DNA from: Chrysophaeum taylorii
Lineage: Eukaryota; Sar; Pelagophyceae; Pelagomonadales; Pelagomonadaceae
Length of the DNA stretch: 23,163 nt
Direction: 5' to 3'
Assembly: GCA_029834535.1 (NCBI GenBank)
Contig: JAQMWT010000312.1
Coordinates: forward strand, 1-23,163
The notes under the pieces were generated by a model, which was not told the origin of the DNA, made no database searches, and saw nothing but the letters and a program-made list of their open reading frames with translations. The translations under genes and the position numbers were made by a program. Of this stretch, positions 730 to 21,290 are shown one piece after another. Positions within the stretch are counted from its first letter, which is position 1, and each line of letters begins with the position of its first letter.

Positions 730-1123
730 TGGAGAGATTTGACCCTCTCCGGGTACATGTGTAGAGACCGCGTGCAGTCTTAGGCGTGTGCAGACCATTC
801 GTTTGTCACATGCTACTACTACACAAGGTAGGGTTTCAGCCCGAACTCCTTGGAGGACATTAGGCCCCATAGAAGCGTTACTGACAACGAGGAACGAAGT
901 CTCTGTTAATTAAACAGAAAACCATACCGACGGTACGCACCTGGAGGCCTACTCCATTTTGGAAAAGAGCTTCAGATTGGGTTCTTCATAAGCTGAGATA
1001 AAAGGGCGGAAGGGTAAGGAAAGAAGGAGAGAGGGAAGCCGTATCACGGAGAAAACCCTCTTGTAGAGATAGAGGTGTGAAATGTTCCAGTGTCGCTCGC
1101 ACACATAAGTGTAGCTCTCTGGA
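730..1123 (-). repeat. Copia 3' LTR (left copy)
   Basis: This is a direct repeat of 12490-12897, with shared starts TGGAGAGATTTGACC and shared ends GTAGCTCTCTGGA on the plus strand. The inner edge is set by the polypurine tract that follows at 1124. The outer edge is set by the loss of similarity before TGGAGAG. In element orientation it starts TCCAGAGAG and ends CTCTCCA. The 3' terminal CA is canonical but the expected 5' TG is not seen. Confidence 0.9.
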
Positions 1124-1133
1124 CCCCCTCAAC
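1124..1133 (-). other. Polypurine tract of the Copia element
   Basis: Read on the minus strand this is GTTGAGGGGG immediately upstream of the 3' LTR start TCCAGAG. A purine run at this exact place is the plus-strand primer site for reverse transcription. The position agrees with the LTR boundary found independently by comparing the two LTRs. Confidence 0.75.
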
Positions 1134-1342
1134 GTGTGGAAACGGTTTATGCATTTCAGACGTTCTTGAGGCGGAACTTGTGCAATATACATGAGAACAG
1201 TGAACAATGGAACAAACAACAACAGAGCAGGACAAATTAATTACGACGTCGAGCGTGTTGTGATGTTGCGCAAAGAAGCAGTATCGGTATCCACAGCATC
1301 ATGTGTGGTCCAATTCATCCCTCGCTATTTCGTCCAGTTCGT

Positions 1343-3203
1343 TTAACTCTGGAGAAGACGAATATGATCATCGGAGGATAGGTCGTTAGCAGTGTTGGTA
1401 TTATGCGTAGTCATTGCATCACTCAAGTTGACCAAGGGTGATATAACAGAAGAAAGGAAGGACATAGCAGCATCCGGTGTAAGAGCGTGTAGATCCAATG
1501 CAGGAATAACACGATCATGTGCATCAGACATAGCTGTGTGGAGGTTATGAGCTGCTGTCGATTAAACTCGCTCTGCCTCATTATACGTGTCTGGAGGAGC
1601 TGTCCAATGACGAGATAAGCGACCGAAATGAGTGGACAAATACAGCAGAGGACGGGATTATGGTGTCCTGATGCATCTGAAGACTTGACAAGATGTTGTC
1701 TAACAGGGACACATGCTTGATGTTCTCGAACTCTTGAGTGTTTAAATTTTCGTAAGTCTCTTGCATCTGAGAGACGTTAGTGCAAGCGATAGTTGTGATC
1801 TCGCGCCATCAATTGCTGTTTCGGTATTAGTGAGACGTAAGGATAAAGACCGAACCTCTTCTTTTAATTGGTGTAAGATTCAGCCCTATTGTCGTTAGCT
1901 TTATCTGGCGTTCAGCAGGTGGATTGTCGATCGGCCGCTGGTGAAACATCTTCAGAAGGTATTATCTGAAAGACATCAATTATGTCGAGGGTAGCCAACT
2001 TGGATTAGCACATTTAAAGAGCAACAGTTTGCTGGTCAAGTGATAGTTGACGAAGATAACTAGGCATTGGCGGTAACGTCTCGGAAGAAGTTACGTCAAA
2101 TGGTGGGAAAAACATCATTGACGAAGCGTTCGACAAGCACGTTAAGTAGCTCATCGGGGTTGGTCACTACACTTTATCTTTAACGGACTGTAACAAAGAC
2201 CAAGCTGCTACAAGAATCTCAAGATTTACACTCGAAGTAAAGGGCAGCTGAAGTAAGAGCATGGCGTTAGCGTCAAGGTTAACAACGATTTTAGAGGCAT
2301 CAACTTTAAGGATGTTGCAGTCTGCATGATTGCCTCTTCGAGCTGCTTGTTAATTGCAATTGACTTTCCAAGGCGGAGGATTATAGCTCTTGTGTGGGCA
2401 GCTGTATCATTAAAACAAGAGAGTTGGAAGGATGCTGGCTGTTGCGATTAAAGCTATCCCTTGGTGTGACAAATTGCACACACAAATCAACAAAAGAATC
2501 AAAGCAGTGCGATGCATGTTGCTCAGACGCGAGATGATCCTCAATAATTTGGCGAATCCTGTCAGTTTTAAGTTCATCTTCATTGCAGGTAATGAGCACG
2601 ACTGGTGTGCCCTCTCAGTTTTATTGTAGCACTTTGCACACGTCGCATGTACTTTGACAACCCCTTAATGGGGAAAGCGTGTGAGGCGTATCCCTTCATT
2701 AGGAGATATAGCGGGGGCATCCGAATGCGCTTTGCTTGACGCACAGCAATGACTGAGGTATTGGACGTTATCTACAAACTCTGTCTGTTGTGCTTCCGTA
2801 AGCAGCTGCTGCAGGACTTGAGCCAGCACTGGGGATCCTTATGTTGCGGAATGAGAAAATTGGGTGGCGAAGAACCAAGGCAGTAACGTTCCCGGTCATC
2901 ATCGCCAGTCACGTCAAACTTGCATGTTTGAGCAGGAAATACTCAGACTTTCTTGCGATTTAGACTGTGTATTGGACAGTTGCCTTGGGCGCCTTGGGCG
3001 TCAAGCGTAGATTGATGTCCTTGAGCCACCGACAAATAGGTTTGATGTTTCCGATTAGAACTAGTCGGTGCAACGCTTGGAGTTAGAGCATTAAAAGGTG
3101 GGGATAGTGACAGTGCACCACCGCGACCACGGTTCAGGGTAGAGTGGCGTCGGCTCGCAGCATCTTTGTTTTTAGTGGGATTCATCATGAAAGGGATCTC
3201 CAC
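1343..3203 (-). pseudogene. Decayed third ORF of the Copia element, unknown function
   Basis: This lies directly downstream of pol, where env-like or accessory ORFs sit in some large Copia and Gypsy elements. No single frame is open for long, but protein-like stretches can be followed on the minus strand with about eight frame changes or stops. They are an N-terminal basic, Ser/Pro-rich part starting at ATG near 3186-3203 (open to 2943); VLAQVLQQLLTEAQQTEFVD near 2800; TCAKCYNKTE then PVVLITCNEDELKTDRIRQI near 2560-2640; ASKIVVNLDANAMLLLQLPF near 2260; DELLNVLVERFVNDVF near 2130; a heptad-like stretch LHQLKEEVRSLSLRLTNTET near 1830-1870; and two open tails (1766-1581 and 1531-1343). I see no transmembrane segment and no family I recognise. 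A coiled coil near 1780-1880 is likely. Treating these pieces as one gene is inference from order, strand and continuity. Confidence 0.5.
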
Positions 3204-3314
3204 ATCACATCTTTTTATTGCATTTCACATTTCAGCGAGCCAGAATTCCTTTACATAGCAGGGTTAGTTTAAAGTCATTTCGGACATAATGAAGGGCAAT
3301 GATTAACCATCTTG

Positions 3315-4312
3315 TTGAGCTATGGGTTGTTGTAAGCCGAGTAACGTGCGAAATCAGCAGAAGAGTGGAGCTCCAAAGGGTTTGGTAAATCCATCGGCGA
3401 GAGTGGAGCTCCAAAGGGTTTGGTAAATCCATCGGCGATATTATGCCAATTTATGGGTACCGGAAACATGATGTAGACGTATGCGTTTTAACTGTACGTA
3501 GTCGTGTATACGGAACCAGCGTGTGCTGATAGCTTTAGCCTTAGTCGCGCTGTCGGGGTTATTTGATAGATGAATAGCAGAGGCCGAATCTCCAAGTATG
3601 GGACTGTTACGTATGAACGACATGTCCGATGGGAGGGGGTTGTCGTGAGCATCATAATCTAGTAGCAAATCTTTCCCTGAAGGTTGGCGAAGATAGAAGT
3701 GAGGGTTTATAACGAATGCCATTTCCGTTAGCAATTTGCGTAACCAAACCACATCATCGGCACACATATTGAGGGCGATAAGTCCACTCTCATGCGTAGA
3801 AGTAGCTGTTACAGGCTGTAGCTTAGACTTCCAAGTGATGAGAGAACCAAACAAAAAGATGGCGTAGCCTGTTGTAGATTTGCGGTCTTGTTCATAAGAA
3901 GGTGCATTATCGGCATCAACGAATGCGACCAGTGGATCAAAATTACCTGAATTAACTTGTTCTTTAGTGTAGTCCAACATGGTGGCCATGTCAGTACGAT
4001 TACCGATAAGAAGTCGAAGATGGTCCATTAGAGCGGAAGAACCAGAGTAGTACCAGAGGCGAAGATTACGATTTTCGGGCTTGCGCAAGTAGCGGAGCGT
4101 TCCTGTTAGTACTTGAACATGTAGAAATGCTGGATTATGCATTCCTCGAGAGCAACGACTAAGACTTTGTGATAGATCGGGGCGACAGGCCAAACGTGAG
4201 CTTGCCGAGTAGAGTAGAAGGTATGAGAGGATGAACTTGTCCATATCAGAAGATGGCTCTCCAGTTTTATACGTGGTGGTTGTTGACATCGGTGTGGAGT
4301 GGGACGTAACTG
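3315..4312 (-). pseudogene. Copia pol, RNase H domain and C-terminus
   Basis: RNase H removes the RNA strand during reverse transcription. An open stretch runs from 4289 to 3441 (282 aa). It holds a YLRKPE-type spacer near residue 68, then FVDADNA (Asp125), the Copia hallmark RKSTTGY (136-142), STHESGLIAL (Glu167) and LGDSASAIHL (Asp234). These are the acidic residues expected for this domain. The stop at 3441 comes one frame away from ADGFTKPFGAPL, the usual end of Copia pol (A-D-x-x-T-K-P). A single indel plus a 38-bp tandem duplication therefore broke the C-terminus. The upstream join to the reverse transcriptase is also out of frame, near 4312. Confidence 0.88.
3363..3438. repeat. 38-bp perfect tandem duplication in the pol C-terminus
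   Basis: Two identical 38-bp units occupy 3363-3400 and 3401-3438. Each contains the bases encoding the conserved D-G-F-T-K-P tail of Copia pol. Because 38 is not a multiple of three, the duplication changes frame. It looks like a recent slippage or repair event, as the copies have not diverged. Confidence 0.95.
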
Positions 4313-5707
4313 CATTAAAATGGGGTACTCTTCGAACAATGCGTCAAGTTTAGCCTGACAGTCCAGTGATATAGAGCCATCAGTTGTACGCGTTATGCGC
4401 ATGCCTAGGAGAGTATGGACTTCCTCGAAGGTGTCGACTGAGTATTCCTTTTTCAGGGCTTGCTGGAACTCACGACGTAGAGTTTCCGAAGTACAAGTAA
4501 TGACGACGTCGTCTACTGAGAGCGTGCAAATTAGAAATGTAGCGTCAGCTTGGACTATAGAGTAAATGCATGTGTCTGTTCGAAATCGTGTGTAGCCTAA
4601 TGAATCAAAGAAGCCGTTTATGGTTTGATTCCAAAGGGCAGGGCTCTGACGCAATCCATAGAGAGATTTAAGTAGCTTTGGGAGACGGCGGCCTTGGTAT
4701 TTAGTATCTTCGGGATCGAGAAGGTAAATACCTTGTGGCAGTTTGACATAGACATGAGAATCGATGGGAGCTTGAACAATAGCGTTAGGGACGTCGACAT
4801 GGTAGACGGGAAGTCGCAGATGAGCTGCTAGCGCCAAAACACAACGGATGCCGGTAAGCTGTGCCATACGGCGGAATGTGTTGAAGAAATCGGTGCCCAG
4901 AGAGGCTAAGAATCCTCGTAGGACCAGGCGTGCTTTGTGTTTAATGTACTGACCAGCAGCGTTGGTTTTTATACGTAGGACGAGACGGGTGTCAATAGGC
5001 TTTGAGTTGACCATTGGCAGCGCTAGTTTAAAGCAGCCAAACTTAACAATATCGAAAATGTCTTTGGAGATGGCAGCAACATAAGCTTTGCGATCAGCGT
5101 CAGAGAGACCTTTGAGGCAGTTCAACTCATATTCATCAATTTTGATATCTTTGGCTTGAATCTTGTATTCGTCCGAACCAACCGTGCTGGGGTCGGTGAT
5201 CGTCGTCAGATGAGTAATTGCGTAAGAAGCGACATTATCGGGCAGATGAGCGTGATTGGGATCTTCGATGAGTTGAACGACTAGTAGAGGCATCACCAAG
5301 GTGGGCTTCAATGTAATGCGATTGCACGGTGATATAGTCTTCGATGGCGGAGATGAGGCTCGGAAGCACCATAGAAGCGTCATTATGATCCAAATGGAGT
5401 GGGGTGTGAACAAAGCATAAACATATTGAGCGGGAGGAACTTGAAAGGCGTGAGCATGTTCAGAAATTAAATGAACGAGAGCTTGAGGAAGGTGAAAGTC
5501 TGCAGGGTTGACGTCGTCGCAGAAGTGAACATGAGGAGTATCAGGCGATGGGTGGCTATGGCTCCTATGACACATAACTGAAGAGGACTGTGAAATCGCT
5601 TGGTGCACATGGTGATGAAGGGATGGTGTAAACTCCCCCTCTGGAGTATAGCCGTCCAGTGGATGCCATGAGCGAGATGAAGGAGTTGAGGGTGGGGTCG
5701 CAGAACG
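4313..5707 (-). pseudogene. Copia pol, reverse transcriptase (RVT_2)
   Basis: This encodes the RNA-dependent DNA polymerase of the element. An open stretch of 500 codons (5608-4106) covers it. By residue, KHKARLVLRGF is at 224-233, VYHVDVPNAIVQAPIDSHVY (first catalytic Asp272) at 268-287, SLYGLRQSPALWNQ at 315-328, and LSVDDVVIT, the YVDD-type active site, at 363-371. The frame is shared with the integrase tail upstream but separated from it by an in-frame TAA at 5708-5710. Between about 5280 and 5400 the reading frame appears to shift out and back, because another frame there reads ASMVLPSLISAIEDYI. After about 4313 the last ~70 codons of the open stretch are out of frame with RNase H. The core motifs are intact but the polyprotein is not. 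Confidence 0.92.
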
Positions 5708-7376
5708 TTATGTACTTGCTTGGAGAGGTCCACTTGTCGTAAGCGTACCCCCGGCTTGTTTATAAGCGGCAACAGTAGGCGAAGCAATCCGAGTAAGAAC
5801 ATCCTTGAGATTGGTTTTGCGACGAGGCTGAGGGTGATGAGGACCACGGGTGAGACGGAGGACATCCTGGGAATAGAGAGACCGATAAGATGGTAAAAGT
5901 GGCAGAGTGTCGGAAGACACTTCAGATGTAGGTGTGGTGGCGGAAGTAGCGGGTGCAGGAGCAGCTGGAGCACATGCGGGAGCGGGAGAGGGAGCATGGA
6001 GATGAGAAGAAGGAGTCCCCCTCTCAAGGTCAGTGTCGGTAGGCATAGCATTCCCCCTCTGCGCCGCATCATTGGGGGTGCTGTGAACAGAGAAGGGAAT
6101 GTCGGGTGAAGGTGCGGGAGGTGGATGCTGTTCATAATCAGGAGGAGATTTGGAAATAAGATGAGGAAAAGGCAGTTTAGAGGAAACACGGACTTGACCG
6201 TTTTCAGGATTATGGACAACATCGGCTAAATGATTAACATGGGGTGTTATTAAAGGGCTTATAACGTTAGCACCGCATAAGTAGATGTAGGGACGACATC
6301 GGGGTTCATATTTATGAAATTCGTTAGGTTCCAAATGCAGATAACAAACAGAACCAAAAGGTTTGAGGCAGTCTTGTTGGGGAACATTACATTGGTCTAA
6401 CAAAACTTGTTGGGGGCTTAGGACTTTATTGTAAATACGTTCGAGGGAAACGTTAGGGAGGAGATTATACGATTGGATAGCATGTATAACAGCCCACGGG
6501 TAGTGTGGTGCCGGATCTGTTAGGGGGTGACCTTTATAGAATACATTAAGCATATGCCGGAGTCGTGTAGACGCGGCAGTGGCTATGTGACCAAAGCGGC
6601 TTCGACTTCATGATTAAAGACATGTAAGTAAGGGGGGAACGCGGACATATTAATACCATGTTCCACACGGAAGGGGGTTGTAACATGCTGAGATAAATAG
6701 GGTTTAAAGGAATCACAATAGATTTGTTTTAGTTGTACGTGAACATAAGTAGAACAAAAATTGCGGACAAACTCAAGGGCGTTACAAAATTCGCTGGAGT
6801 TAGTGCTACGACAAAAGTACACTAACAGAAATTTAGAAATGAGAAACTTGAAAACAATGATATGTCGAAAGGATCCCCATTCCGAGAGCACAGAGACGTA
6901 ACCACCGTCACATGCCCAGGCTTCACCAGGTTGAAAAATTTTTTCGAGTGATGGTTGCTTGATAAGGTGGTGTGGATGAGGAAAGCGTTTTTATGAATCG
7001 TGCAATCCACACAGAACTTACGGTAGAGTACGTCAGATGGGTGGTGTCCAGGACTGGCAATAATCTGAACAGCTTTTATAGCTTGAGAGTCTCTAGAATG
7101 GTGAATGTTGTGAAAATTGGTAGCTCGTTGTTGCGCATCTCGAAATGCGAGGGTGCCCCTGGCATGGACTTTCTTATCGAAGGGCGCATGCTTCTCATGG
7201 AGCTGTCTTGGCGTTATAAGGGGTATTTGTTTTTCTTTAGTAGGAGGTGATATATCTGCGGATGAGGTGTTAGAGAGGAAGGCATGAGCTACTGAATCAA
7301 TATGAAAAGAAGGAAGTTCGTGGTTAGAAGTGATAGTATCAGAACATAAGAGTTTTTTATTGGAGATGTAGAACAT
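5708..7376 (-). pseudogene. Copia pol, GAG-pre-integrase and integrase, frameshifted
   Basis: Integrase inserts the cDNA into the genome. Reading from 7376, the first frame carries an N-terminal zinc-finger-like region (HNIHH then KFCVDCTIHK). Near 6920, at a run of A and T, the frame changes to PGEAWACDGGYVSVLSEWGS, which supplies the first catalytic Asp. The continuing frame gives IYCDSF (second Asp) and HEVEAA (Glu), with about 35 residues between the last two, completing the D,D-35-E core. A further shift near 6560-6580 leads to RLRHMLNVFYKGHPL, then LKPFGSVCYLH and PYIYLCGANV, the usual Copia integrase tail. A Pro/Ala-rich linker follows and ends at an in-frame TAA (5708-5710). The start overlaps the methyltransferase stop by 20 bases, in a different frame. 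Confidence 0.88.
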
Positions 7377-9262
7377 TGTAATGGAACTCTGGTGTAATGT
7401 TTGTTAAGGATGTATCTGTTGGGAATATACTTGTGAAGAAGCTTGACCTATAGTTTTTGGTTAGAGAAGCGTGATCAGGGTCAAACGATGGTGATAGCGT
7501 TAATATACGCAAGTCATAAACAAGCTGACACAAATGTTTATAAGTTGTACGATATGTTCCAGCTGGAATAGCATTTGCGATGATATCACAGCATAGGTCA
7601 GGGGACAAAGACAAAAGAAAATTGATTTGGTACGCTGTGAAGTTATTGGCGCGTGCCAATTCGCGAGTTGAGTAGTGTCGAATGCGATCGAGTCGTGGAT
7701 CGTACACCAGCATATTAGCAAATCCACGAATGGTGGGAGTGGGAGCGTATATAGAATGAACTTTGGCACCCATCTTCCTATCGCTTGATGTTATAAAGCC
7801 CAAATATCTGCTTTGGGACAAATGCATGTCACTTAAAGCAAACATTTTGTCAATAAATTCGAGACGATTTTCCTGAGGGTGGAAGACAAAAGAATCGTGA
7901 AATACAGGAGAAGTATGGGGAACCAATGCTTGTACTAGACGACGCGTGTCTTGATTTTCATTATTATTATGGTATGCTTGGCAAAGCCAAAGAAAACCGG
8001 TAACTGGTTCGAGAGAAGCAGTCTTATCGATTCCGGCATCGTGTGTTAGGAGGGTGTAGGTTTCGCCAAAAGCATTTATATGTGCCTGGTATTTAGAAGA
8101 AGAGTTAGAAACTGTTATGTCTCCGCCTGTATGTCTTCCACCGGTGATGTAAATGATGGATGAAGTAGAGGATTTATTTAAGAATAGCCTGGGAGATGGT
8201 TGGTTAGATTCGATAGTTGTAATACGAAAGGACACAGGTAATGTGATGGATTTAGGGAATAATCGTCCCATAATATTATAGAGGAGCACAAAAGCTTTGA
8301 GTTCAATAGGGGATCTCGTGCAAGCAAGTGGTTTTCTTGAATTAGTCAAGAATCCCAGGCGAAAGTTAGAAATGCCCTCCATTTCATCTTGACTGGGATG
8401 TTCGACTGTTTTATTAGAGTGCAGACGAAGGAACAGCATAGTTAAGGTTTCAAGCTCAGTTACAGTTAAGCGCACGGATCCTGTACGACTGAAAATATTG
8501 TAGATTTTAGGTGTGGACACGAATGGTATTTCAGGAAAGACCTGCGTCCAAGGTTCGTCGACTATTAACTTGCGGCTAATGGAGTTAGCGTGGTCTGCAA
8601 TATCTAGAAAAGAAGTGACTCGTTTATTAGGCCATGAAACCAGATCAAGAGGGCCGGTGCTATATTTGCGTGCGACGAGGATCCATCTTTCTCTGGCTTG
8701 ATAATCTCCACATAAATAGCATGGAAATCGGTCACATATGTCCACCGTATAGTGCATCGTTGAGAAGATGAGATTAGCAACTCGTATATGATCTTCATAC
8801 GATGCGGAGTGTGGTGGAGTCATTTCCATGAAGAGAACAAGCGGCTTTAAAAGCTCAAGTACATTTAGAGCACTTGGGAACAAGGAATCATCCATATCGC
8901 GCTCGAAGGTGGAAATGGATTTCCCATTGATTATGTTGCGATTTTGTGCATGGTGATGTCAATTCCACTATGTCAGTGTAATATCGTGCACGTTCAACGT
9001 CCGATGCTCGATGGAGATATGTCAAAAACTTAGGTAGGGATGGGAAAACTTCGATGGAATTACCAAAACGTCTTCGTAGCATGTGCGTGATATTGTCGTC
9101 GCTCTCAACAAGAACTTTAACGTTGATGTTGATTTGCAAGTCATTAGAAGCGCAAGCCAAGAATGCAGGAGTGGACATCCCAGAGCAAAGTAGGGTTACT
9201 GTAGGTATTCGTGGGCTAGGAGATGAAGTTACTGTATGGAGCAAACGTGTTGTAACCTTGCG
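7357..9262 (-). pseudogene. C5-cytosine DNA methyltransferase-like protein encoded inside the Copia element
   Basis: C5-methyltransferases add a methyl group to cytosine in DNA. All main motifs are readable in order. Counting from the TTG at 9244, motif I is LLCSGMSTPAF (18-28), motif II is VLVESDD (Glu47), and motif IV is ELTSPCTKS, with the catalytic Cys99 codon at 8948-8950. A one-base indel near 8925 then changes frame. Counting from the ATG at 8895, motif VI is LFMEMTPP (Glu24), motif VIII is GDYQARERWILVA (63-75), a PTIRG element is at 386-390, motif IX is STRELARANNF (409-418), and motif X is ANAIPAG (440-446). The first part is in the same frame as Gag-PR, separated only by a TGA at 9263-9265. 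Motif VIII and the PTIRG element are about 300 residues apart, far more than a usual target-recognition domain. Without the indel the protein would be about 630 aa. Its role in the element is inference: self-methylation or reshaping of host silencing. Confidence 0.82.
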
Positions 9263-12004
9263 TCATACAGGAGGTGGGAAATGCTTGCGTATGTAAGACA
9301 GCTGCGAATGCATTGACTCCAGGATGGTTTTAAGCCATGGGACGTAAATTACGCGTCCCATGAGGGTGGAATATAGTTTAGGCATTTCGCGTTGTTCATT
9401 AAAAGCACATAGTCTGAACTGTAGTGAGTGAAGTTCAATTTTACGCGCTTTTGCTTGTTGTAGCGAATAAATTGGTACAGTAGGCAACAGGTTACTGAGT
9501 CTAAACAAAGTAATCTTGACATTATCATCAATTTTACTCTGGATAGAGGATTGTCCCTTAAATTCAACTCCATAAAGATGTATACCAAGTTTATCTTCTC
9601 CCCATTGAGTCATACTGATGATGTGCAGATCGGGATCGTTATGGTCGTTTTGCTTGGGTAGGAAAAGCGCAACGTCTAGCTTTACATATCCCACATTTGG
9701 ATGCTCTGGGAGAGCGGGAATGACAGTTCTTATAATCAAAGCATGTGTGATTCTCGGCGTATCCGTAGCAGTCTGGATAGCAGGTGATAAGGACTCGGGT
9801 AGCTTTACGATGTGGATAGGATCAGCATAACGTTTAAAGTCAATTACATGTTGAGAAGCACATGTGTCAGCATATCCTGGCGTAGTCATTAGCGGCAAAT
9901 TGTACTCGTTGTACAGTTCAAGCATTGTTGCATAACAGGCATGTGTTGAGCTTTGACCAAACACGTACTGTGTCATGAAACTTTGCGTTTGTTCGGAAGG
10001 CACAACGACGAGTGTAAAACCAGTATTTAATTTTGGTAGAAACACAGGGGGATCTGTACCATCTTCATTATCTTCATTGGGTAGATTACTGGGGAGCTCA
10101 GAGTGCGAGGAAGTTCCCCGAGCTTGACGACGAACGATAGCGTTCTGAGCTTTAGCATTTATGTGCTGCAATAGCGGCTGAGGGATGTTGTCGATTTCAT
10201 CATCTTTAATGGACAGAAAAGTGTGGAACATTTTCTCTGTATCAGCAGCCCCCCTCTGCTCCGCATCACTGGGGGACGCTTCCGGAGCAGATGTTTCAGT
10301 TTGATACTTTTCTTCTGAAACAAGAGATTCCTTGTCGGCTTCCAAGAGGTTCGATATGGTATTGGACATAATATCAACTCGAGATAAGTAGAGATGAACT
10401 TGGGTGGCTTCATCAGAATCTAAGAACTGTGTCGAAGCTTGAGAAGCGGTTGTCCAGAGGGTACTCAATAAGCATTTCATTTCCTCCTGTACCATTTTAG
10501 AGTCGGTAGAAGGGTTGGGATTGGCTTCCTGTAATTTACCAAACAGGTGGCGAAGACGATCAACTTGATAAGTTGCCCGGTTCATAAGAGACATATTAGA
10601 GCGTGCATTACGGTTAGAGGAAGATGAGTAGACAGGACGATCGAAGCTGGTACCTTTGACGTTATAATTTGAGGGTGGACGATAGTACGACGTGTCACGG
10701 GGTGAAATTGTCGATGCTTTGTCTTTTGCATTACGAAGCTTACGAGCGTTGAAGCCAGACTGTCCAGCTACCGTGGCTAACAACGAGTAAGCGTTGTTTA
10801 GAGAGTCGTGGGATTGATGAATAGTATCCATCAATAATACCTTAGGTGGCTTGGTAGCGGTAGTACCAGAGATGTAAGGGATCCAAGAAGCGGGTTTATC
10901 CAAGCGTCGGTTAGAAGAAAACTTTGTTTCATTGTATATCTTTAACAAGAATTCCAATAGTGGACGAACGTCGTTAGGATCAACTAGCTTTAACAATTCG
11001 GGATCGCGACTCGAGTTGTTACCAGAGCGTGTCTCGTAGGGTTTACACCATTCCAATAAAGATTGAGAATAGCGCTCGTGATCCGAGGGATTAGCATATA
11101 GACGGTAGATCTCCTCGTGAGCTTTGAGAGTGATTATGGAGTTGTTAAATTGGATTGATGCTTCATCATTATTTAATTGCTTTGCCTGAGATTGAAAGGC
11201 AAGGAGTTGTTCGACAAATGCATGGGCATACCAATTAACATTTAGAGACATTCGATTAAACTGAGATTTAAGCTCAGTAACATCTGTACAAGACACTGTC
11301 TCATAGTAATGATAGGCTAAAAGCATTACAGCGCGCAATTTATTGGGATGTGCAGGGATTGCATAAATTTTCTTTAATTGAGGCCACATAGCGAGAGCGG
11401 GCTTTTCCTGGGACTCGAGGTTAAAGAATATGTACAAAAAAACAGCATAAGTTTCGCAGTGTTTGATCCAATCGGCATTAGAGAGACCTGTAAAGGATAT
11501 GTTAGTTGAAGATGAATCATACACAATTGATTTAGGAAATCGGGTATCTAATAAAGTAAAGACATTTTTAACATCCTCATTTAATTCAGGACGGTCAAGG
11601 TTGTACGACTCTTGGTAGTAGAGTCGTTCAAGGCTATTACGGGCATCGACCGTTAGTTGATGGGAAGAGTTGACGTGCCAAGTCTTTAAATGTTCGGGCA
11701 GGGCATCTTCATCAGGTAAGTTTAAATCATTTATTTGTTCAGCTTTCCATTGAGCGAAGATGATATCAACTTCTTGTTCAAGAAGTTGATTATATTCCGG
11801 AGCATTCCGGGTGTAAGCTTCATATGAATCAAAGCAGAATAACGCGTCCACATATGGACTTGTCATATGCCTGCGAAGCACCTCAATTTGCAAGCTCACC
11901 TTGGTTGAGTTGTCTTGGAAACGCAATCCTTCCTTAATCTTATCAACGAGGATTTGTTCTTGTTTGTAGATATCCGTGGTGGATATTGGTTTTTGTTTTG
12001 ACAT
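9263..12004 (-). CDS. Copia Gag-protease, 913 aa, open reading frame intact
   Basis: Gag forms the virus-like particle and the protease matures the polyprotein. The ATG at 12002-12004 starts MSKQKPISTTD, and the frame stays open for 913 codons. The first ~580 residues are helical and polar with no visible CCHC zinc knuckle, consistent with a diverged Gag. A low-complexity linker follows near residues 570-650. The protease active site is ADTCASQHVID with Asp713 (codon 9866-9868), a D-T-C-A-S variant of the usual Copia D-S/T-G-A-S. Further on, LHIISMTQW matches the N-L-L-S-V-x-Q region that follows protease in Copia elements. ORF1 ends ...FPPPV at TGA 9263-9265, and the same frame continues straight into the methyltransferase. 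The protein is longer than usual for Copia Gag-PR. It is the only long element ORF without a break. Confidence 0.85.
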   Translation of the reverse strand: MSKQKPISTTDIYKQEQILVDKIKEGLRFQDNSTKVSLQIEVLRRHMTSPYVDALFCFDSYEAYTRNAPEYNQLLEQEVDIIFAQWKAEQINDLNLPDEDALPEHLKTWHVNSSHQLTVDARNSLERLYYQESYNLDRPELNEDVKNVFTLLDTRFPKSIVYDSSSTNISFTGLSNADWIKHCETYAVFLYIFFNLESQEKPALAMWPQLKKIYAIPAHPNKLRAVMLLAYHYYETVSCTDVTELKSQFNRMSLNVNWYAHAFVEQLLAFQSQAKQLNNDEASIQFNNSIITLKAHEEIYRLYANPSDHERYSQSLLEWCKPYETRSGNNSSRDPELLKLVDPNDVRPLLEFLLKIYNETKFSSNRRLDKPASWIPYISGTTATKPPKVLLMDTIHQSHDSLNNAYSLLATVAGQSGFNARKLRNAKDKASTISPRDTSYYRPPSNYNVKGTSFDRPVYSSSSNRNARSNMSLMNRATYQVDRLRHLFGKLQEANPNPSTDSKMVQEEMKCLLSTLWTTASQASTQFLDSDEATQVHLYLSRVDIMSNTISNLLEADKESLVSEEKYQTETSAPEASPSDAEQRGAADTEKMFHTFLSIKDDEIDNIPQPLLQHINAKAQNAIVRRQARGTSSHSELPSNLPNEDNEDGTDPPVFLPKLNTGFTLVVVPSEQTQSFMTQYVFGQSSTHACYATMLELYNEYNLPLMTTPGYADTCASQHVIDFKRYADPIHIVKLPESLSPAIQTATDTPRITHALIIRTVIPALPEHPNVGYVKLDVALFLPKQNDHNDPDLHIISMTQWGEDKLGIHLYGVEFKGQSSIQSKIDDNVKITLFRLSNLLPTVPIYSLQQAKARKIELHSLQFRLCAFNEQREMPKLYSTLMGRVIYVPWLKTILESMHSQLSYIRKHFPPPV

Positions 12005-12475
12005 GATTGTGACCTATTAAGAGATAGGTTATAGGATTGATAGACATATTCAACACATAAGAATGAGGGGTTTCTCAAGTGCGGGTTCTATGTACAGTAC
12101 GCTATTTTAAACGTGGGCTTCTTGACAAGACCAAACAAATCAACATGCTATTTGAAACAGGGTGACTTGAGACTGAAGAATGGATTAGCTCTCGAGCAGT
12201 CAGTATTTTGTTGGGAATGGAAGTAAAAAACCCGTACAAGTTTCCGCGGCTCGTATAGGAAAAAATTTAAATTTTGTTGGTTATGCGAGTGCATGTGACC
12301 AGTGACCGACCCAACTCGGCCACAAACCAAATTAACTGGTGGGCACATACCGTCACACAACAAATATGTACAGTAGACCACCGCCAAACACATTGTCGCA
12401 TTGTACTCGTGATCAGGCGTAAATTGATCACTCCATTTAGACGTACAACACAGTTGGGCTGACACACCTACGCAT
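12005..12475 (-). other. 5' leader of the Copia element
   Basis: About 470 bases lie between the primer-binding site and the Gag-PR start codon. No convincing ORF is present. This is where the packaging signal and Gag translation signals would lie. I see no specific motif that I can defend. Confidence 0.6.
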
Positions 12476-12489
12476 CTGGGCCCATAACC
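12476..12489 (-). other. Primer-binding site, initiator tRNA-Met anticodon arm type
   Basis: The plus-strand bases CTGGGCCCATAACC directly abut the inner edge of the 5' LTR (12490). They equal the anticodon stem-loop of eukaryotic initiator tRNA-Met, so the element RNA carries the complement GGTTATGGGCCCAG. Drosophila copia uses the same site, primed by a tRNA half cut in the anticodon loop. The site fixes both the LTR edge and the element orientation. Confidence 0.88.
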
Positions 12490-12897
12490 TGGAGAGATTT
12501 GACCCTCTCCGGGTACATGGTAGAGCCTGCGTGCAGTCTTAGGCCTGTACAGGCCATTCCGCTTGTCACATGCTGTACTACACAAGGTAGGAATTTAAGC
12601 CCTAACTCCTTAAGGACATTAGGTCCCATAGAAGCGTTTACACTGACAACGAGGAACGAAGTCTCTGTTAATTAAACAGAAAACCCCGTACCCGACGGTA
12701 CGCACCTGGAGGCCTACTCCATGTTGGAAAAGAGCTTCAGATTGGGTTTTTTTCTTCAAAATCTGAGATAAAAAGGGCGGAAGGGTAAGGAAAGAAGGAG
12801 AGAGGGAAAGCCGTATTACGGAGAGAAAACCCTCGTGTAGAGATAGGTGTGAAATGTTCCAGTGTCGCTCGCACACATAATAGTGTAGCTCTCTGGA
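12490..12897 (-). repeat. Copia 5' LTR (right copy)
   Basis: This is a direct repeat of 730-1123. In element orientation it runs TCCAGAGAG...CTCTCCA and is 408 bp. A CCCTTTTTATCTC stretch (minus strand, near 12763-12776) is a weak TATA-like candidate for the element promoter. Position 12898 onward (GGTT) matches the four bases before the left LTR (726-729) and is the candidate target-site duplication. Confidence 0.9.
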
Positions 12898-13193
12898 GGT
12901 TTTTTTTTGTGGTCGGCAGACCCCCCCCCACGAAGAGAGTTTGTTGTTATAGTGCTGCGGCACGACCGGAATTTTTTTGGTAGCGTGTGTTTAGCCGCCA
13001 AGTCCAGTCCCCTGCCCGATTTCTTTATCTCGTCGGCTTTTTTTTTAGCCTCGCGTACCATGAACTCGTATAGTGGACGATGGGCCCCACCGCCGGTTCC
13101 GAAACGGCAATAAGGGGAGTCGATCTTTTTCTTGAAAGGGCCGGCTTGTGTGTAATAATCAAAGTTACACACGCGTTGTGTGTTATATTCCAT
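12898..13193 (-). CDS. Short hypothetical ORF interrupted by the Copia 5' LTR
   Basis: The ATG at 13191-13193 in an AAAATGG context opens about 98 codons before the frame runs into the LTR. The reading shows MEYNTQRVCNFDYYTQAG, then a SPYCRFGTGGGAHRPLYEF segment and a Lys-rich helical stretch EAKKKADEIKKSGRGLD. The composition is protein-like, but I do not recognise a family. Beyond the insertion, the sequence left of 730 continues as Asn/Gln-rich repeats (TTG microsatellite read antisense) without a clear homologous tail. The retrotransposon therefore either truncated this gene or landed in its 3' region. It is also possible that the ORF is spurious. Confidence 0.35.
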
Positions 13194-15770: not shown

Positions 15771-17177
15771 TTAGAAGTCCGCGCCCGAGAGGAACTTGTG
15801 CATCATCGCGAAGGCGCGTTGGGGCGCCGTCTCGGGGACTTCGTGGCGACCCCCCCGGACCGTGGTGAAGGTGAACCACTTGGGGACATCGAGCTTGGTG
15901 GCGTAGCCGCCGACGCTCTGGTAGCCGTTGGTCTCGAGGAGCCACGGGTGCCAGGGGGCGGAGATGTTGTAGGGAAGCGAGAGGACCCAACCCTCGGCGT
16001 CGGTGTAGGGGACGCACGAGTCCCAATCTCCGTTGTAGACGAGGACCTTGATGTGGTCGACGAGGTAAGGGTAGGTGTCGCGCGGAAGGTTGGCAGCCGT
16101 CGACGTGTACTCCCAATTAGAAGGCGTTCCGCACACGCTCCAGTCGGAGACGCCCGCCGGAGTAACGTGAATCGCCTCTTGGACGTCGGCCTGGTTGAGC
16201 CACGCGCTCGCAGCGACCGAATCGATACAGGCGGTGGTCGGCTCTTCGTCGTCCCCCAGAGCCTTGCCGACGCGGCGACGACGCCCGCGCATTTGTTCTC
16301 GCGAGTTCGCGGAAAACTGCTCGCCGCAATCGCAGTAAACACAGTAGGTGTCGAGTTTCGAGGTCAGCTTGTCCAACGTGTCGACATGGGTCTGGCACTC
16401 GTCGGCGATTTCGCCGCCCTGGCTCCACTCGGCCCAATTGCACGTCGCGTCGAGGTCGTTCTTCAACGAGTTGGGAACGAAAGCGGTTTGCATCAAATAC
16501 TTGGTGACGTAGTAACTGCCCTGCGTCGAATCCCCAAAGGCGCAAATCCCGACCTCGTTGCCCGAGCAGCCGTTACCCACCGCAATCCCCGCGAGGGCAA
16601 GAGTCCCGTCTTCGATGATCGCTTGCGCGAGGGTTGGCACGTAGACCCCGGCGTACGACTCCCCCGTCACGTAGAGCTCGTGGCCCTTCAAGCCGGGGTA
16701 CTTTACGAAAAATTCCTTCAAAGCGGCCAGATTGTCGGCGGCGGCCGTCGCGTCGGTGCACGCGTAGTCGCTCGTCGTGTTCTCGGCGCTCGAATAAGAG
16801 AAGCCCACGCCGCACGGCTGCTCTACGTACACCACGTTCGCGAGCTTTGCCCACGTGTACTCAAACCGCTCCAGCTGCGGGCTCCCGGTCCCGTTGTACG
16901 TTTGGAACCGGAAGGGACCGTGTTCGTACAAAAATCCGTCGAGGGACGAGCATCCCGGCCCCCCGTTGAACCACACTACCAAGGGATCCGACGACGGATC
17001 CCCTTCGGATAGGACGAGGTAATAGTGCAAGTGTTTGGTCGCAGAAGCGTTGATGTAGCCCGAGTAGTGCTTCGAAGGCAGAGGCGGCGCCCCGGGCAGA
17101 CTCAAAACGCGATCGTCCGCCGCCGCGCCGCTCGCCAACACCCACAACAACACCACCATGACGTACCTACCTCCCAC
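15771..17177 (-). CDS. Serine carboxypeptidase, peptidase family S10, secreted or vacuolar
   Basis: S10 enzymes remove C-terminal amino acids at acid pH in vacuoles, lysosomes or outside the cell. The 468-aa ORF is complete and intronless. Residues 1-20 are a signal peptide with cleavage likely after AAA. Landmarks are WFNGGPGCSS (69-78, oxyanion and substrate-binding region), VYVEQPCGVGFSYS (116-129), the nucleophile elbow TGESYAGVYVP with Ser174, YNGDWDSCVPY with catalytic Asp384, and GGRHEVPET with His445. The usual sequence around the histidine is G-A-G-H-x-V-P, so GGRH is a variant. N-glycosylation sequons occur at Asn43, 95, 133 and 404. A basic-acidic loop (GRRRRVGKALGDDEEP, about 298-313) sits where two-chain S10 enzymes are often cleaved. 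The length is normal for the family. The stop is TAA. The gene diverges from the decayed gene on its left only by spacing; both are on the minus strand. Confidence 0.95.
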   Translation of the reverse strand: MGGRYVMVVLLWVLASGAAADDRVLSLPGAPPLPSKHYSGYINASATKHLHYYLVLSEGDPSSDPLVVWFNGGPGCSSLDGFLYEHGPFRFQTYNGTGSPQLERFEYTWAKLANVVYVEQPCGVGFSYSSAENTTSDYACTDATAAADNLAALKEFFVKYPGLKGHELYVTGESYAGVYVPTLAQAIIEDGTLALAGIAVGNGCSGNEVGICAFGDSTQGSYYVTKYLMQTAFVPNSLKNDLDATCNWAEWSQGGEIADECQTHVDTLDKLTSKLDTYCVYCDCGEQFSANSREQMRGRRRRVGKALGDDEEPTTACIDSVAASAWLNQADVQEAIHVTPAGVSDWSVCGTPSNWEYTSTAANLPRDTYPYLVDHIKVLVYNGDWDSCVPYTDAEGWVLSLPYNISAPWHPWLLETNGYQSVGGYATKLDVPKWFTFTTVRGGRHEVPETAPQRAFAMMHKFLSGADF

Positions 17178-17185
17178 CTCTCGTC

Positions 17186-17290
17186 TTGTGGTCGTCCAAT
17201 CACAAGATAAAAGGGTAACGATTTAAACTCCGTCGATTTAAACTCCGTCTTTGTGGTCCAATCAAAAGAAAGATAAAAGGGGAAGTAAGG
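17186..17290 (-). promoter_or_regulatory. Duplicated CCAAT / TTTTATC module upstream of the carboxypeptidase
   Basis: Two similar blocks sit just upstream of the carboxypeptidase ATG. On the plus strand they are TCCAATCACAAGATAAAAGG (from about 17196) and TCCAATCAAAAGAAAGATAA (from about 17255), each followed by a GTAA or GGAAGTAA tract. On the gene strand each offers CCTTTTATC followed by TGATTGGA, an inverted CCAAT box. ATTTAAACTCCGTC is also repeated between them. A promoter role is inferred from position and repetition only. Confidence 0.35.
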
Positions 17291-17294
17291 ATTT

Positions 17295-18322
17295 ACAAGT
17301 GCAGGCGCCAGTAAGTTCTTCACTTATAGTCCCAATCTCTAACCCCAGTAAGTTCACCTGGTACCAGTAAGTAAGTTCACCTGGTCCCAGTAAGTTCACC
17401 TAGTCCAAACCTCTAACCCCAGTAAGTTCGGCGGCGTAAACCCACTCGTGCTCACACCACTCCTTCGAGCTCGTCGCTGTCGCCTCCGCCAATCTAAGCT
17501 GCTTTGATCCGCACACGCCGCTAACCTTTGAGTCCTTACTACAACTAATCGACAGTATGTTTGTCAGTAAGTTCACCTGGTCCCAGTAAGTTCACCTGGT
17601 CACTATATTCACCTAGTCCCAATCTCAAACCCCAGCAAGTTCACCTGGTCCCAGTTGTAGTTCACCTAAGTCAGTGCGCGTGTAGACGCCGGGAGGGGGC
17701 TTGTCGGTATTGCGCAGCACGTGTGGGGGTAGGGTGGAGTCGTCGACTCAGAAGAGTATATTCTCGGGGTTGCCGATCGACAGAGAGCCACGTAGAGCTG
17801 GACGTGACAGAAGACGGGCTTGTGGGCAAGAGGACGCGGACCTCGCGGGGCGTCTGGCCCTAGCTCTTTTTGATCGTTTGGCGTAGGCGGGCCTTAAGGG
17901 ATACAGGTTGGAGGAGCCTCGGTGACAACGACGCGATCAATCACGTATCTGGTACCGTTGCAGTGGCCGTGCGACGGGTCGAGGTTGCGAAGACTTTAAG
18001 CTCGCGATCAAAGTCAGCATGCCGTTGGTTGTCAGGGAGTTGAAAATTCGACTGTAAAGAGCGAGGCGTCGGCTTCCGACCCAACCTAGTCGTCGGGGGC
18101 CGAAAAGAACTCCGACGCCTCGTCTCCGGGAAAAAAAGGCCGCGGTCATGCGCGCGTTGTCAGCATCGACAACATCGTTTCGACGGGGCGTGAGAATGGC
18201 GCGCTGGCTAAAAGAGCCGCCGCCGCGGGTCGTGGAAATAGTCTGTGAGGTCGGCGTAGACGGCTTGGAGGATCAATGCCTGGCTCGCGGGCCTACCTGA
18301 TCCTTACCCTGAATCGAGGGAC
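17295..18322 (-). mobile_element. Helitron/PIF1-helicase-derived repeat unit, left copy
   Basis: PIF1-type helicases unwind DNA, and Helitron transposons carry one fused to a Rep domain. On the minus strand this unit holds the decayed C-terminal third of such a helicase. AILTPRRNDVVDADNARM is at about 18145-18200, near the usual a-I-L-t-P-x-N. A VEF...NSLTTNGM stretch lies near 18030-18050. RNLDPSHGHCNGTRYVI is at about 17940-17990, matching the L-R-N-L-d-x-x-x-G-l-C-N-G-T-R motif. The next motif (TIKKS, then a stop, then GQTPREV) lies near 17850. Several frame changes occur. The 3' side is a minisatellite built on CCAGTAAGTTCACCTGG. The unit ends on the right at CGAGGGAC (18322), the same point as the right copy. 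Only the helicase end is present, with no Rep domain. Confidence 0.72.
17304..17672. repeat. CAGTAAGTTCACCTGG minisatellite, interrupted
   Basis: The 17-19 base unit CCAGTAAGTTCACCTGG(TC) and variants occur about nine times, in two blocks (about 17304-17432 and 17566-17672), separated by about 130 bases of unrelated sequence. Each unit is a small inverted repeat, with CCAG at the start and CTGG at the end. A shorter array of the same unit is at 20209-20285 in the right Helitron-like copy. Some units are preceded by CCCAATCTCTAAC. Confidence 0.9.
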
Positions 18323-20127
18323 TACATCGCGCAACACTGCTGCCCCACCAACGCCTTGAGCGCGCTCCGCCTCTTCGACGTTGCCGTCCTCAGCTTCGTC
18401 GCCACAGCACTTGGCGCAGAGCCGTGTCAGGTTTTTGACTCCACCGGCATCGTCCTCCAACGCCTCCGTCTTCCTGCTCGAAGTGGGGGTGGCGGCATTC
18501 GCTCCTGCGCCGACCTCAGCCCCGCCGCCTTTGTTGGTACGGCGGCTCAGGCCCTCCCACACCTCGTCGACCTTCGCGATCCTACGGGTGCCGTGGAGTT
18601 CCCTGGCTACCTCCCCCGCCTCGCCTCGGTCCTGGGTACCACTTCTTTTCGCACAGGTAACGAGTTGCACCGTTGGCACCACCTCCTCGCATCCGGTTGC
18701 CGCCTGGGGCGAGCACTCGCGACTGCGTGGGACGGACTTCGGGCTGATCTCCGTACCACGCTGGCTTCCCACGGCGGCGCTGTTTCCGGCGACCCCGCCA
18801 ACGTTCATCTCGTCGACGGTCCTCTTTCCCACGAATTCGTCTCCGTGGGCGTCCTCGTCGACCCCACCATCTCGACGGACACCCGTGCTCATACCCCACC
18901 TACAGCGTGCTCTAACCTCCCAGCGCGAGACAGCTCGGGCCACTGCACTCCAGCGCCTTGCGGCCACCCTTCCCATCACCGATGCACTTCGAGTAGCGGC
19001 GTCCTCATGGGATCGCTTCTCGACCACGTTCATAAGCTCGTGGCCCAGCTCCGCCCTTCAAATCCCCAACCGCTGCTGGGCTGAGATGTTTGCCCAGTAC
19101 TTTGGCTACCCCTCTCCAGCTTGTTCGGGCCTGGTGGGCACTCGCATTCTGGGCACTGACGTCGTTCTCGACGCTCACGGCAAGGTGCTTCTCACGCAGG
19201 CCAACCTTGTCAACCGCGGAGGAGCGCGGACCACCTGGCATGACGGCCAGCTCGACTGCGTCCTCTCTGCAGCGTCAAAGAGGCCGGCATCCCAGCCCTG
19301 TAAAACCGAGGTTTTCGGCATCTTTGCTGACGTCGTCGCCCCTACCATTCGCACGCGCCTCTACGGCCGGTACCGAGGCAATCTCGCCCGTCGCCACGTC
19401 GTCCCAGACATCCTCACCACGCTCGACAACAAGGAGCAGCTCTACGACATCAAAAACCTCGCTTGGGGTTCGTTCGTTCTACACCGCCCACGCCCTCCAT
19501 CCCTCCCACCCGTCGCCCGTCGATCGGCGCGCAGCGCAAGTCCACTCCGAATACCTCGCTCGCGCCCGCGGCATCGACGCCATCATCCCCCAGCCGGGGA
19601 CAGCACCACCGCCTGGCTTCTTGGGCCTTGTCGAACAGCGGCTACTTAGCTACGGTACCGTCGCCGGCCTCGTGTTTGGTGCCTTCGGTGAGGCCCCCAG
19701 TGCGGCGCGCCACGCCCTCGCCCAAACATGCGCAGAGCGCATCGCTGCGCGAACCTGGGTGGCAAACGGCTGCGCCAACTTTGAACACAGAGGCAAAGGC
19801 GGCCCAAAAAAAACTCGCCGCATCTACCGTGAGTGGGGGATCGCCAACGCATTGAAACCCGGGCTCGCTGTGCCCTCACCGCCCTCACCCATGTCGCCGC
19901 CTCTGGGAACCCCATCCAGGCCACCCGATCCCAGCAGGACGTCACCCTTCATCGCACATACGTCCGGCGGCAGCATGCGTACGACCTACCAAGGCGGGGC
20001 CCTTGGTCCGCTCTTCGCCTGCCCCACGACTCGGCGATGACCCCGACGACTAGGTCCCGCGTACTTATCTCCGCCCATCAGAGGCACATCCCTCCTACCC
20101 CACAAACCCACCCACATCCTTCATGCT
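18323..20127 (+). mobile_element. 5'-truncated non-LTR retrotransposon, C-terminal polyprotein relic with PD-(D/E)xK nuclease motif
   Basis: The polyprotein can be read across three frames (switches near 18890 and 19465). It begins abruptly after CGAGGGAC with YIAQHCCPTN...ALRLFDVAVL. It continues with RLPARSGGGGIRSCADLSPA (the region that follows reverse transcriptase in many protist elements) and VEFPGYLPRLASVLG. In the second frame come ILGTDVVLDAHGKVLL and TWHDGQLDCVL, then TEVFGIFADVV and VVPDILTTLDNKEQLYDIKN. The last has Pro-Asp at 19404-19409 and Asp-Ile-Lys at 19446-19454, a PD-(D/E)xK-type endonuclease core. The third frame gives DRRAAQVHSEYLARARGID and GTVAGLVFGAFGEAPSAA and ends at TGA 20038-20040. 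A C-rich 3' end follows near 20127. The reverse transcriptase itself is absent, as expected after 5' truncation. Confidence 0.6.
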
Positions 20128-20198
20128 CCCCCCACACCCCCCCCTCTCAACAGTCGACTTATTTAAAGACAAAAACAAAGCATTCGACTTATTTAAAG
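20128..20198. repeat. C-run plus paired TCGACTTATTTAAAGAC repeats
   Basis: After the non-LTR 3' end comes a C-rich run, then GTCGACTTATTTAAAGAC (20153-20170) and again TCGACTTATTTAAAGAC (20184-20200). The second copy touches the start of the right Helitron-like unit. An inverted near-copy, GTCTTTAAATGTCGAC, lies at 21122-21137 beyond that unit. Confidence 0.85.
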
Positions 20199-20312
20199 AC
20201 AAGTGCAGGCCAGTAAGTTCACCTACTCCCAATCTCTAACCCCAGTAAGTTCACCTGGTCACGTGGTCCCAGTAAGTTCACTTATAGTGCGCGTGTAGAC
20301 GCCGGGAGGGGG

Positions 20313-20476
20313 GCATGAAGGATGTGGGTGGGTTTGTGGGGTATGAGGGATGTGCCTGACGGGCGGAGATAAGTACGCGGGACCTAGTCGGGGTTATCGC
20401 CGAGGCGTGGGGCAGGCGAAGGAGGAGGCCCCGCCCGGGTCGCACGCTGCTGCGCCGGACGTGTGCGACGAAGGGT
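20313..20476 (-). mobile_element. Tiny 5'-truncated non-LTR retrotransposon tail, antisense
   Basis: This segment is absent from the left Helitron-like copy. It is the reverse complement of the last ~180 bases of the non-LTR relic (about 19943-20127), including the end of the ORF (...FACPTPRR, then a stop) and the CATCCTTCATGC 3' terminus. It sits within a G-run: five Gs at the empty site (17695-17699), six Gs before the insert and four after it. This is consistent with a short target-site duplication of G residues. Confidence 0.8.
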
Positions 20477-21027
20477 GGGGCTTATCGGTATTGCGCAGCA
20501 CGTGTGGGGTAGGGTGGAGTCGTCGGGGATGCCGATCGACAGAGAGCCACGTAGAGCTGGACGTGGCAGAAGACGGGCTTGGGAAAGAGGACGCCGACCT
20601 CGCGGGGCGTCTGGCCCTGGCTCTTGTTGATCGTTTGGCGTAGGCGGGCCTTAAGCGATACAGGTTGGAGGAGCCTCGGTGACAACGACACGATCGATCA
20701 TGTATCTGGTACCGTTGCAGTGGCCGTGCTACGGGTCGAGGTTGCGAAGACATTAAGCTCGCGATCAAAGTCAGCATGCCGTTGGTTGTCAGGGAGTTGA
20801 AAACTCTACTGTAAAGAGCGAGGCGTCGTCTTCCGACCCAGCCTAGTCAGCCGAAAAGAACTCCGACGCCTCGTCTCCGGGAAAAAAAGGCCGCGGTCAT
20901 GCGCGCGTTGTCAGCATCGACAACATCGTTTCGACGGGGCGTGAGAATGGCGCGCTGAAAGAGCCGCCGCGGGTCGTGGAAATAGTCTGCGAGGTCGCCG
21001 TAGACGGCTTGGAGGATCACTATCTGG

Positions 21028-21073
21028 CTCTCGCGCCTACCTGATCCTTACTCTCGCGCCTACCTGATCCTTA
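21028..21073. repeat. 23-bp perfect tandem duplication
   Basis: Two copies of CTCTCGCGCCTACCTGATCCTTA minus small edge effects (21028-21050 and 21051-21073) lie inside the right Helitron-like unit. The left unit has one diverged copy at the same place. Confidence 0.92.
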
Positions 21074-21089
21074 CCCTAAATCGAGGGAC

Positions 21090-21290
21090 AAACAGACAAA
21101 CAAACAGACAGACAAACATCTGTCTTTAAATGTCGACTGCTAAGAGGGGGGGGTGTGTGTGGGGAACCAAACATCTGTCGATTAGTAGTTAAGACAAACA
21201 AACTAACAGACAAACATCTGTCGATTAGTAGTAGTAGTTAAGAAGGAAACATCTGTCGTTTAGTAGTAAGGAAGTAAGGATTAAAAAATA
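21090..21290 (+). promoter_or_regulatory. Repeat-rich upstream region of the PARN-like gene
   Basis: This short intergenic stretch is made of (ACAAACAG)-like repeats followed by four spaced copies of AAACATCTGTC (about 21112, 21168, 21208 and 21247). Three of these continue as G(A/T)TTAGTAGT. A GGGGGGG/GTGTGTG tract lies near 21145-21160. The last copy is about 45 bases before the ATG. Repeated elements at this position could be regulatory, but the arrangement may equally reflect microsatellite growth. Confidence 0.4.

Follow-up and report, generated by a model that had tools for sequence, protein, structure and literature searches.

Does a Copia retrotransposon carry its own cytosine DNA methyltransferase, and what would such an enzyme do for the element? 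The question is raised by a 23.2-kb contig of the pelagophyte Chrysophaeum taylorii (JAQMWT010000312.1, analysed over its full 23,163 nucleotides and referred to as the window; genome 70.8 Mb in 697 contigs). A 12.2-kb damaged long terminal repeat (LTR) retrotransposon occupies positions 730-12897 on the minus strand and is assigned to Copia because a Copia-type reverse transcriptase (RT; RVT_2, PF07727, E 1.3e-37) was found at 4364-5011. Working from the letters alone, an earlier sequence-only reading had placed a C5-cytosine DNA methyltransferase (MTase) between the protease (PR) and the integrase (IN) of this element. The comparison of many genomic copies indicates that a C5-MTase homologue is a core domain of the polyprotein Pol in several Copia families, in a fixed position between PR and IN. 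The window element belongs to a group of copies termed family A; family C is its sister, and family B is a second Copia family.

Homology and position of the methyltransferase in Pol

The motifs expected of a C5-MTase are all present in the window copy, on the minus strand and in the canonical order I, II, IV (PC), VI (E), VIII (QxRxR), IX, X, as the sequence-only reading had described. A motif search located motif I (LLCSGMSTPAF, 9161-9193), motif II (VLVESDDN, 9092-9115), motif IV (SPCT, within 8945-8971), motif VI (MEMTPP, within 8812-8838), motif VIII (QARER, within 8668-8709), motif IX (RELAR, within 7639-7674), and motif X (ANAIP, within 7552-7587). Open reading frame (ORF) and motifs define an N-terminal piece with motifs I, II, and IV (8888-9262, minus strand); the C-terminal piece (7552-8958, minus strand) holds motifs VI, VIII, IX, and X and a target-recognition region of about 330 residues. 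The same reading had called the domain complete and joined its frames at about 8925. In fact, the frame is lost just after the PCT of motif IV, at about 8945, and Pol is broken again further on. An uninterrupted MTase frame is carried by several other genomic copies.

Neither MTase piece of the window has a Pfam MTase match at E 0.1, and the PF00145 cut-off is not reached. Since the claim could therefore not rest on Pfam, profiles were compared with each other. A query profile of 18 family-A and family-C sequences was aligned by hhalign to a reference profile of eight C5-MTases (alignment A3; two host, three plasmid, and three phage sequences), which gave an E-value of 5e-5 and a probability of 68%, with motifs I-VIII in register. 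The score was 44.5, compared to at most 21.6 in 24 column-shuffled controls and 19.6 in a reversed control. A separate line of support came from PADLOC, whose model for type II MTases picks up motifs IX-X of the relative L040 (E 0.022). Within the 18 aligned A and C members, two match PF00145 at E ≤10 (best E 0.043). Family B passes this model: all six aligned members match, and its copy L041 scores 32.2 bits against a cut-off of 22. The NCBIfam dcm model also matches family B (E 2.7e-7 and 6e-7), under the cut-off of that model; no NCBIfam model matched L040 or L049. The profiles of families A and B align over the full span of motifs I-X (E 0.0019, probability 14%). When the catalytic halves of all three families were aligned together (17 A, 9 C, and 6 B rows), the Glu of motif II, the Glu of motif VI, and the Arg of motif VIII were invariant in 32/32 rows, and the Pro-Cys of motif IV is found in 30 of them (L024 lacks the Pro and L030 the whole motif). 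A sequence search of the PDB returned no MTase for alignment A1 and one C5-MTase at E 0.73 for alignment A2. The segment of families A and C is almost certainly NEVERTHELESS a C5-METHYLTRANSFERASE homologue within the element. As to identification by profile search, Pfam misses the window copy, whereas profile-profile comparison and family B support the homology.

Further copies, sought in the host genome as the sequence-only reading had suggested, number in the hundreds across families A, B, and C. The counts are lower bounds taken from the best-scored candidates and include fragments: at least 150 stretches match the N-terminal MTase piece (150 of 845 candidates scored), at least 88 the C-terminal piece (84 of 1381), at least 151 the MTase of family C (150 of 1000), and at least 85 that of family B (76 of 754). 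Hundreds of MTase copies or fragments are thus present in a genome of only 71 Mb. The proposed placement between PR and IN recurs in many copies, in which the C5-MTase homologue is a fixed part of Copia Pol. L041 encodes a PR-like motif, the MTase, the IN finger, and RT in a single 1868-residue frame, the 1464-residue frame of L040 covers the MTase, IN, and the first part of RT, and L043 represents the pol of family C. An A or C MTase match lies 2.5-7.5 kb upstream on the same strand in 72 of 150 RVT_2 matches (150 of 1670 candidates scored), compared to 1/150 and 0/150 in control placements. The remaining 78 RT matches are not evidence for the absence of an MTase because the MTase lists hold the best-scored candidates. 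Six of these 78 loci were fetched in search of a Copia free of MTase. Four of them (L063-L066) hold upstream MTase sequence, L068 keeps only the C-terminal end of the MTase behind an apparent nested insertion, and in L067 neither the MTase nor IN was matched, this copy being apparently cut short within Pol; a clean loss of the segment was found in none of the six. Positions 1-1239 of L068 contain a zinc-knuckle Gag-like frame of a different element inside a family-A copy, which has the appearance of a nested insertion.

Selection, expression and origin

According to the substitution ratios, purifying selection acts on the MTase domain, as it does on RT. For 12 uninterrupted family-A copies (broken copies were left out), the ratio of nonsynonymous to synonymous differences (pN/pS) was 0.123 in the whole domain, 0.107 in motifs I-VIII, 0.123 in the target-recognition region, and 0.068 in motifs IX-X. 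The comparison of L040 with these 12 copies gave 0.115, 0.048, 0.130, and 0.087, respectively. The corresponding substitution-rate ratio (dN/dS) of RT was 0.024, 0.049, and 0.061 in three family-A pairs, the first with silent sites near saturation; three RT pairs against family C were saturated or nearly so, and the sole computable one gave 0.085. Selection appears to have preserved the MTase in Copia across deep divergence.

Gag-PR ends in a UGA (9263-9265, minus strand) that is in frame with the MTase and marks the boundary to MTase-Pol. This column is kept in 24/24 distinct family-A copies (28 rows compared, including four repeats of a locus already counted; in two copies, the Gag side contains small gaps), and the UGA is present in 4/4 family-C copies compared. 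Since no ATG precedes motif I in the family-A rows, expression in family A is most simply explained by bypass of the UGA, and readthrough from Gag into Pol is the probable source of the MTase. In L043 of family C, an in-frame ATG directly follows the UGA, with the same letters in the other three family-C rows, which makes re-initiation possible in this family. Family B may use frameshifting where family A has the UGA: in L041, the only clear copy, Gag and Pol are in different frames near 6310-6330, close to a run of five Ts. Another family-B copy, L042, is broken near the Gag-Pol junction. A recoded UGA in the host is unlikely because UAA terminates both of the host genes found in the window and the frame of the host DNMT5-like gene (L002/L069, contig C621; C5-MTase and SNF2 domains) extends over 2086 residues without any stop. 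Tca2 is a Copia-type element. In this element of Candida albicans, a UGA between gag and pol likewise needs to be bypassed; it differs in that the bypass is reported to be non-canonical, and a methyltransferase is not mentioned in the available passages of the paper (PMC2194720).

In a tree of 19 sequences, the MTases of A, B, and C cluster together (support 91/84), a group that was recovered in 92% of the bootstrap trees. Because long branches and few references limit this tree, a single capture for all three families is favoured but unproven. The alternative, that families A/C and B took their MTases separately from different donors, would be in line with the low identity of A and B in the catalytic half (13-15%) and with the length of both branches. 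We regard it as unlikely, given that the same Pol slot is used in A/C and B, that the A-B alignment is collinear end to end, and that the three families group in nearly all bootstrap trees. No relative reached E 0.001 or 0.01 in protein searches with the MTase regions of L041 and L040 and with alignment A2, in which candidates were restricted to proteins of similar length with short exact word matches. No relative was found in viral contigs (alignments A1 and A2) or prokaryote contigs (alignment A2). A capture independent of the known retrotransposon-borne DNA methyltransferases (DNMTs), as raised in the sequence-only reading, is plausible because Copia is a different superfamily.

The host encodes a red-type RuBisCO large subunit on contig C697, whose best solved relatives are presumably diatom enzymes and whose ends may be pelagophyte-like. 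In the passages available, the known DNMT-bearing retrotransposons are long interspersed nuclear elements (LINEs), DIRS, and Gypsy elements (PMC5890265, PMC9998398, PMC6338049, PMC3145265, PMC12477816). The statement in the sequence-only reading that LTR elements of dinoflagellates and charophytes carry cytosine MTases is correct for the charophyte Gypsy element, but the dinoflagellate cases are described there as LINE and DIRS (PMC5890265). KnitGypsy-Dnmt3 of Klebsormidium nitens (de Mendoza et al. 2018, PMC5890265) resembles the present element in that a C5-MTase is part of the Pol of an LTR element, that several copies exist, and that they are under purifying selection. It differs in being Gypsy, not Copia, and in having a DNMT that groups with Dnmt3, and the present host has a red-type RuBisCO. 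SymbioDIRS-Dnmt3 and SymbioLINE-Dnmt of Symbiodinium share with our case the hundreds of intronless retrotransposon DNMTs under purifying selection, but are DIRS and LINE elements; Copia, the most abundant class in Symbiodinium, is described in the same passages as being without any DNMT domain (PMC5890265). One sentence of a 2025 paper (PMC12344493) assigns DNMT3 members to "LTR Copia and DIRS" elements. The source given there is the 2018 paper, in which the LTR element is a Gypsy, and the available passages of the 2025 paper contain no Copia case; the wording may be a naming slip. Apart from this sentence, no Copia with a C5-MTase was described in the open-access titles and abstract openings listed, a scope that leaves subscription papers and preprints outside. 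Retrotransposon-borne DNMTs as such are already known; new here is the C5-MTase as a core Pol domain of Copia. The short list of such captures is thereby extended to Copia and, judging from the RuBisCO, probably to an alga with a red plastid.

Possible role of the enzyme

Retrotransposons are prime targets of DNA methylation. Copia, among the largest retrotransposon classes, here appears to encode its own writer, fused to the machinery by which it is copied; with the enzyme built into Pol, the element may write chemical marks on its own DNA. In our main proposal, a C5-cytosine DNA methyltransferase would have been captured into Pol between PR and IN in an ancestor of A, B, and C and retained under selection as a functional domain of Pol. 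Pol would be produced when the Gag UGA is occasionally bypassed, the MTase would be packed with RT and IN into virus-like particles, and it would methylate the new double-stranded cDNA before or during integration. The host DNMT5-like enzyme could then maintain the marks written by the element, and new copies would arrive already marked, as host-like or quiet DNA. We consider the chances of this sequence of events, from capture to host maintenance, to be evenly balanced, and we would judge the methylation of the element's own cDNA, taken by itself, in the same way. That the MTase has belonged to the core of Pol throughout this Copia clade since before the split of A, B, and C, and acts as the de novo writer in a genome whose own DNA methyltransferase, the DNMT5-like enzyme, would maintain the marks seeded on the cDNA, is put forward tentatively, as rather doubtful. 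Marking of cDNA or tuning of host silencing by the MTase, proposed in the sequence-only reading, is an inference here as well.

Several observations weigh against the cDNA-marking proposal. The observed/expected ratio of CpG was 0.89-1.01 in four element bodies and 0.71-0.74 in the LTRs, against 1.25-1.46 in five host stretches, which is no strong mark of self-methylation. Of the CG sites, 18 of 158 carried rare transitions, compared to 41/624 for other C/G sites and 99/1075 for A/T sites. Families A and C remain under the curated cut-off of PF00145, and family A has EMT, not ENV, in motif VI and PCT, not PCQ, in motif IV. The single structure model of the MTase, with a mean predicted local distance difference test (pLDDT) score of 34, was uninformative, and structure prediction, named earlier as a check of the MTase identity, thus speaks neither for nor against the Rossmann-type MTase fold. 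The long branches and the eight references of the origin tree and the use of uninterrupted frames in the estimates of selection belong to the same side of the balance.

The enzyme could also be a real C5-MTase with an RNA substrate, either the primer tRNA or the genomic RNA, and would then aid priming, packaging, or RNA stability. DNMT2 methylates tRNA, and the target-recognition region of DNMT2 is small. The fit of the element's primer-binding site (PBS) to a half of tRNA-Met and the weakness of the CpG depletion agree with an RNA substrate, but the stretch of about 330 residues that separates motif VIII from motif IX is more in keeping with the recognition of a DNA target than with the small domain of DNMT2. 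In the 2018 paper, as far as its available passages go, RNA methylation is raised for LINE elements and a tested LINE enzyme did not methylate DNA in yeast, whereas a DIRS-borne DNMT is reported to perform CG methylation (PMC5890265). Taken together, we think an RNA substrate improbable. No greater weight is given to the reading of the domain as the relic of a methyltransferase that has lost most or all of its catalysis and is retained in Pol for a structural or nucleic-acid-binding function. Such a relic would account for the unusual motifs IV and VI of families A and C, for their position under the Pfam cut-off, and for the loss of Pro-Cys in 2 of 17 family-A rows. It need not retain exactly the catalytic residues, yet the Pro-Cys, the Glu of motifs II and VI, and the Arg of motif VIII are kept across A, B, and C.

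Finally, the element enzyme might act in trans on the host genome and shape its methylome, as proposed for Symbiodinium, with an indirect benefit for the element. The very high copy number is in accordance with this, as is the small number of C5-MTase genes identified elsewhere in the genome, just two: a lone C5-MTase gene (L001) and the DNMT5-like gene. Of the 57 PF00145 stretches in the genome, 28 overlap listed family-B copies and 2 lie within 3 kb of such copies; the other 27 comprise the genes L001 and L002, four stretches that are family B by sequence (L003, L005, L007, and L008), and 21 without a class. On the other hand, the window copy and many others are broken by stops, and CpG was not depleted in the host stretches measured (observed/expected 1.25-1.46 in five stretches and 1.06 in 17200-21200 of the window). 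Action in trans is the explanation to which we assign the lowest probability. By eye, motif I of the DNMT5-like protein (CSG) resembles that of family A.

Element architecture and neighbouring sequences

The LTRs, the PBS, and the polypurine tract were all located on the minus strand and enclose one LTR element of the Ty1/Copia type at 730-12897, in agreement with the sequence-only reading. The 5′ LTR (408 bp, 12490-12897) and the 3′ LTR (394 bp, 730-1123) were delimited by alignment to each other, with 371 of 389 aligned bases identical and 24 gap columns. A possible 4-bp target duplication (GGTT, plus strand) is found at 12898-12901 and 726-729. The PBS GGTTATGGGCCCAG (14 nt, 12476-12489, minus strand) is of the half-tRNA type: its complement CTGGGCCCATAACC corresponds over 14 nt to the 5′ half, or anticodon-loop half, of two tRNA-Met(CAU) genes of the host. 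Priming by half a tRNA is likewise known from Drosophila copia. Inspection of the sequence revealed a short polypurine-like tract GTTGAGGGGG adjoining the 3′ LTR (1124-1133, minus strand).

The domain order, judged from Pfam matches, motifs, and position, is the Gag-PR-IN-RT-RNase H order of Copia with IN ahead of RT, and all coding parts lie on the minus strand. Upstream of the MTase is the Gag-PR ORF (913 aa, 9263-12004) with a PR-like DTCASQH at 9848-9868; it has no Pfam match, and Gag and PR were assigned by position and motif. Downstream follow, in broken frames, the GAG-pre-integrase finger (HHCC, 7002-7118) and the start of the IN core (6583-7376), so that both flanks of the MTase are as first described. 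The rve match is weak in L040 (E 0.011, under the Pfam cut-off). The C-terminal, SH3-like part of IN (5711-6553) matches PF25597 at E 1.5e-4, also under the Pfam cut-off. The RNase H end of Pol (3441-4289) was assigned by ORF and position, with a motif at 3855-3926 and without a Pfam match. Just past RNase H, a perfect 38-bp tandem duplication is located at 3362-3437. The 2.3 kb from 3440 to 1124, up to the 3′ LTR, contain no long sense frame.

Outside the element, the window contains two uninterrupted host genes, which according to Pfam encode a serine carboxypeptidase (S10; 15771-17177) and a CAF1-family deadenylase (21291-22844). The region between them (17344-21089) is possibly another mobile element, as suggested by its repeat structure. 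Repeat blocks of up to 269 bp (95% alike for the longest) form two sets, separated by about 2.75 kb, on either side of ORFs without a Pfam match (18356-20040), and inverted repeats are located at 20013-20421.

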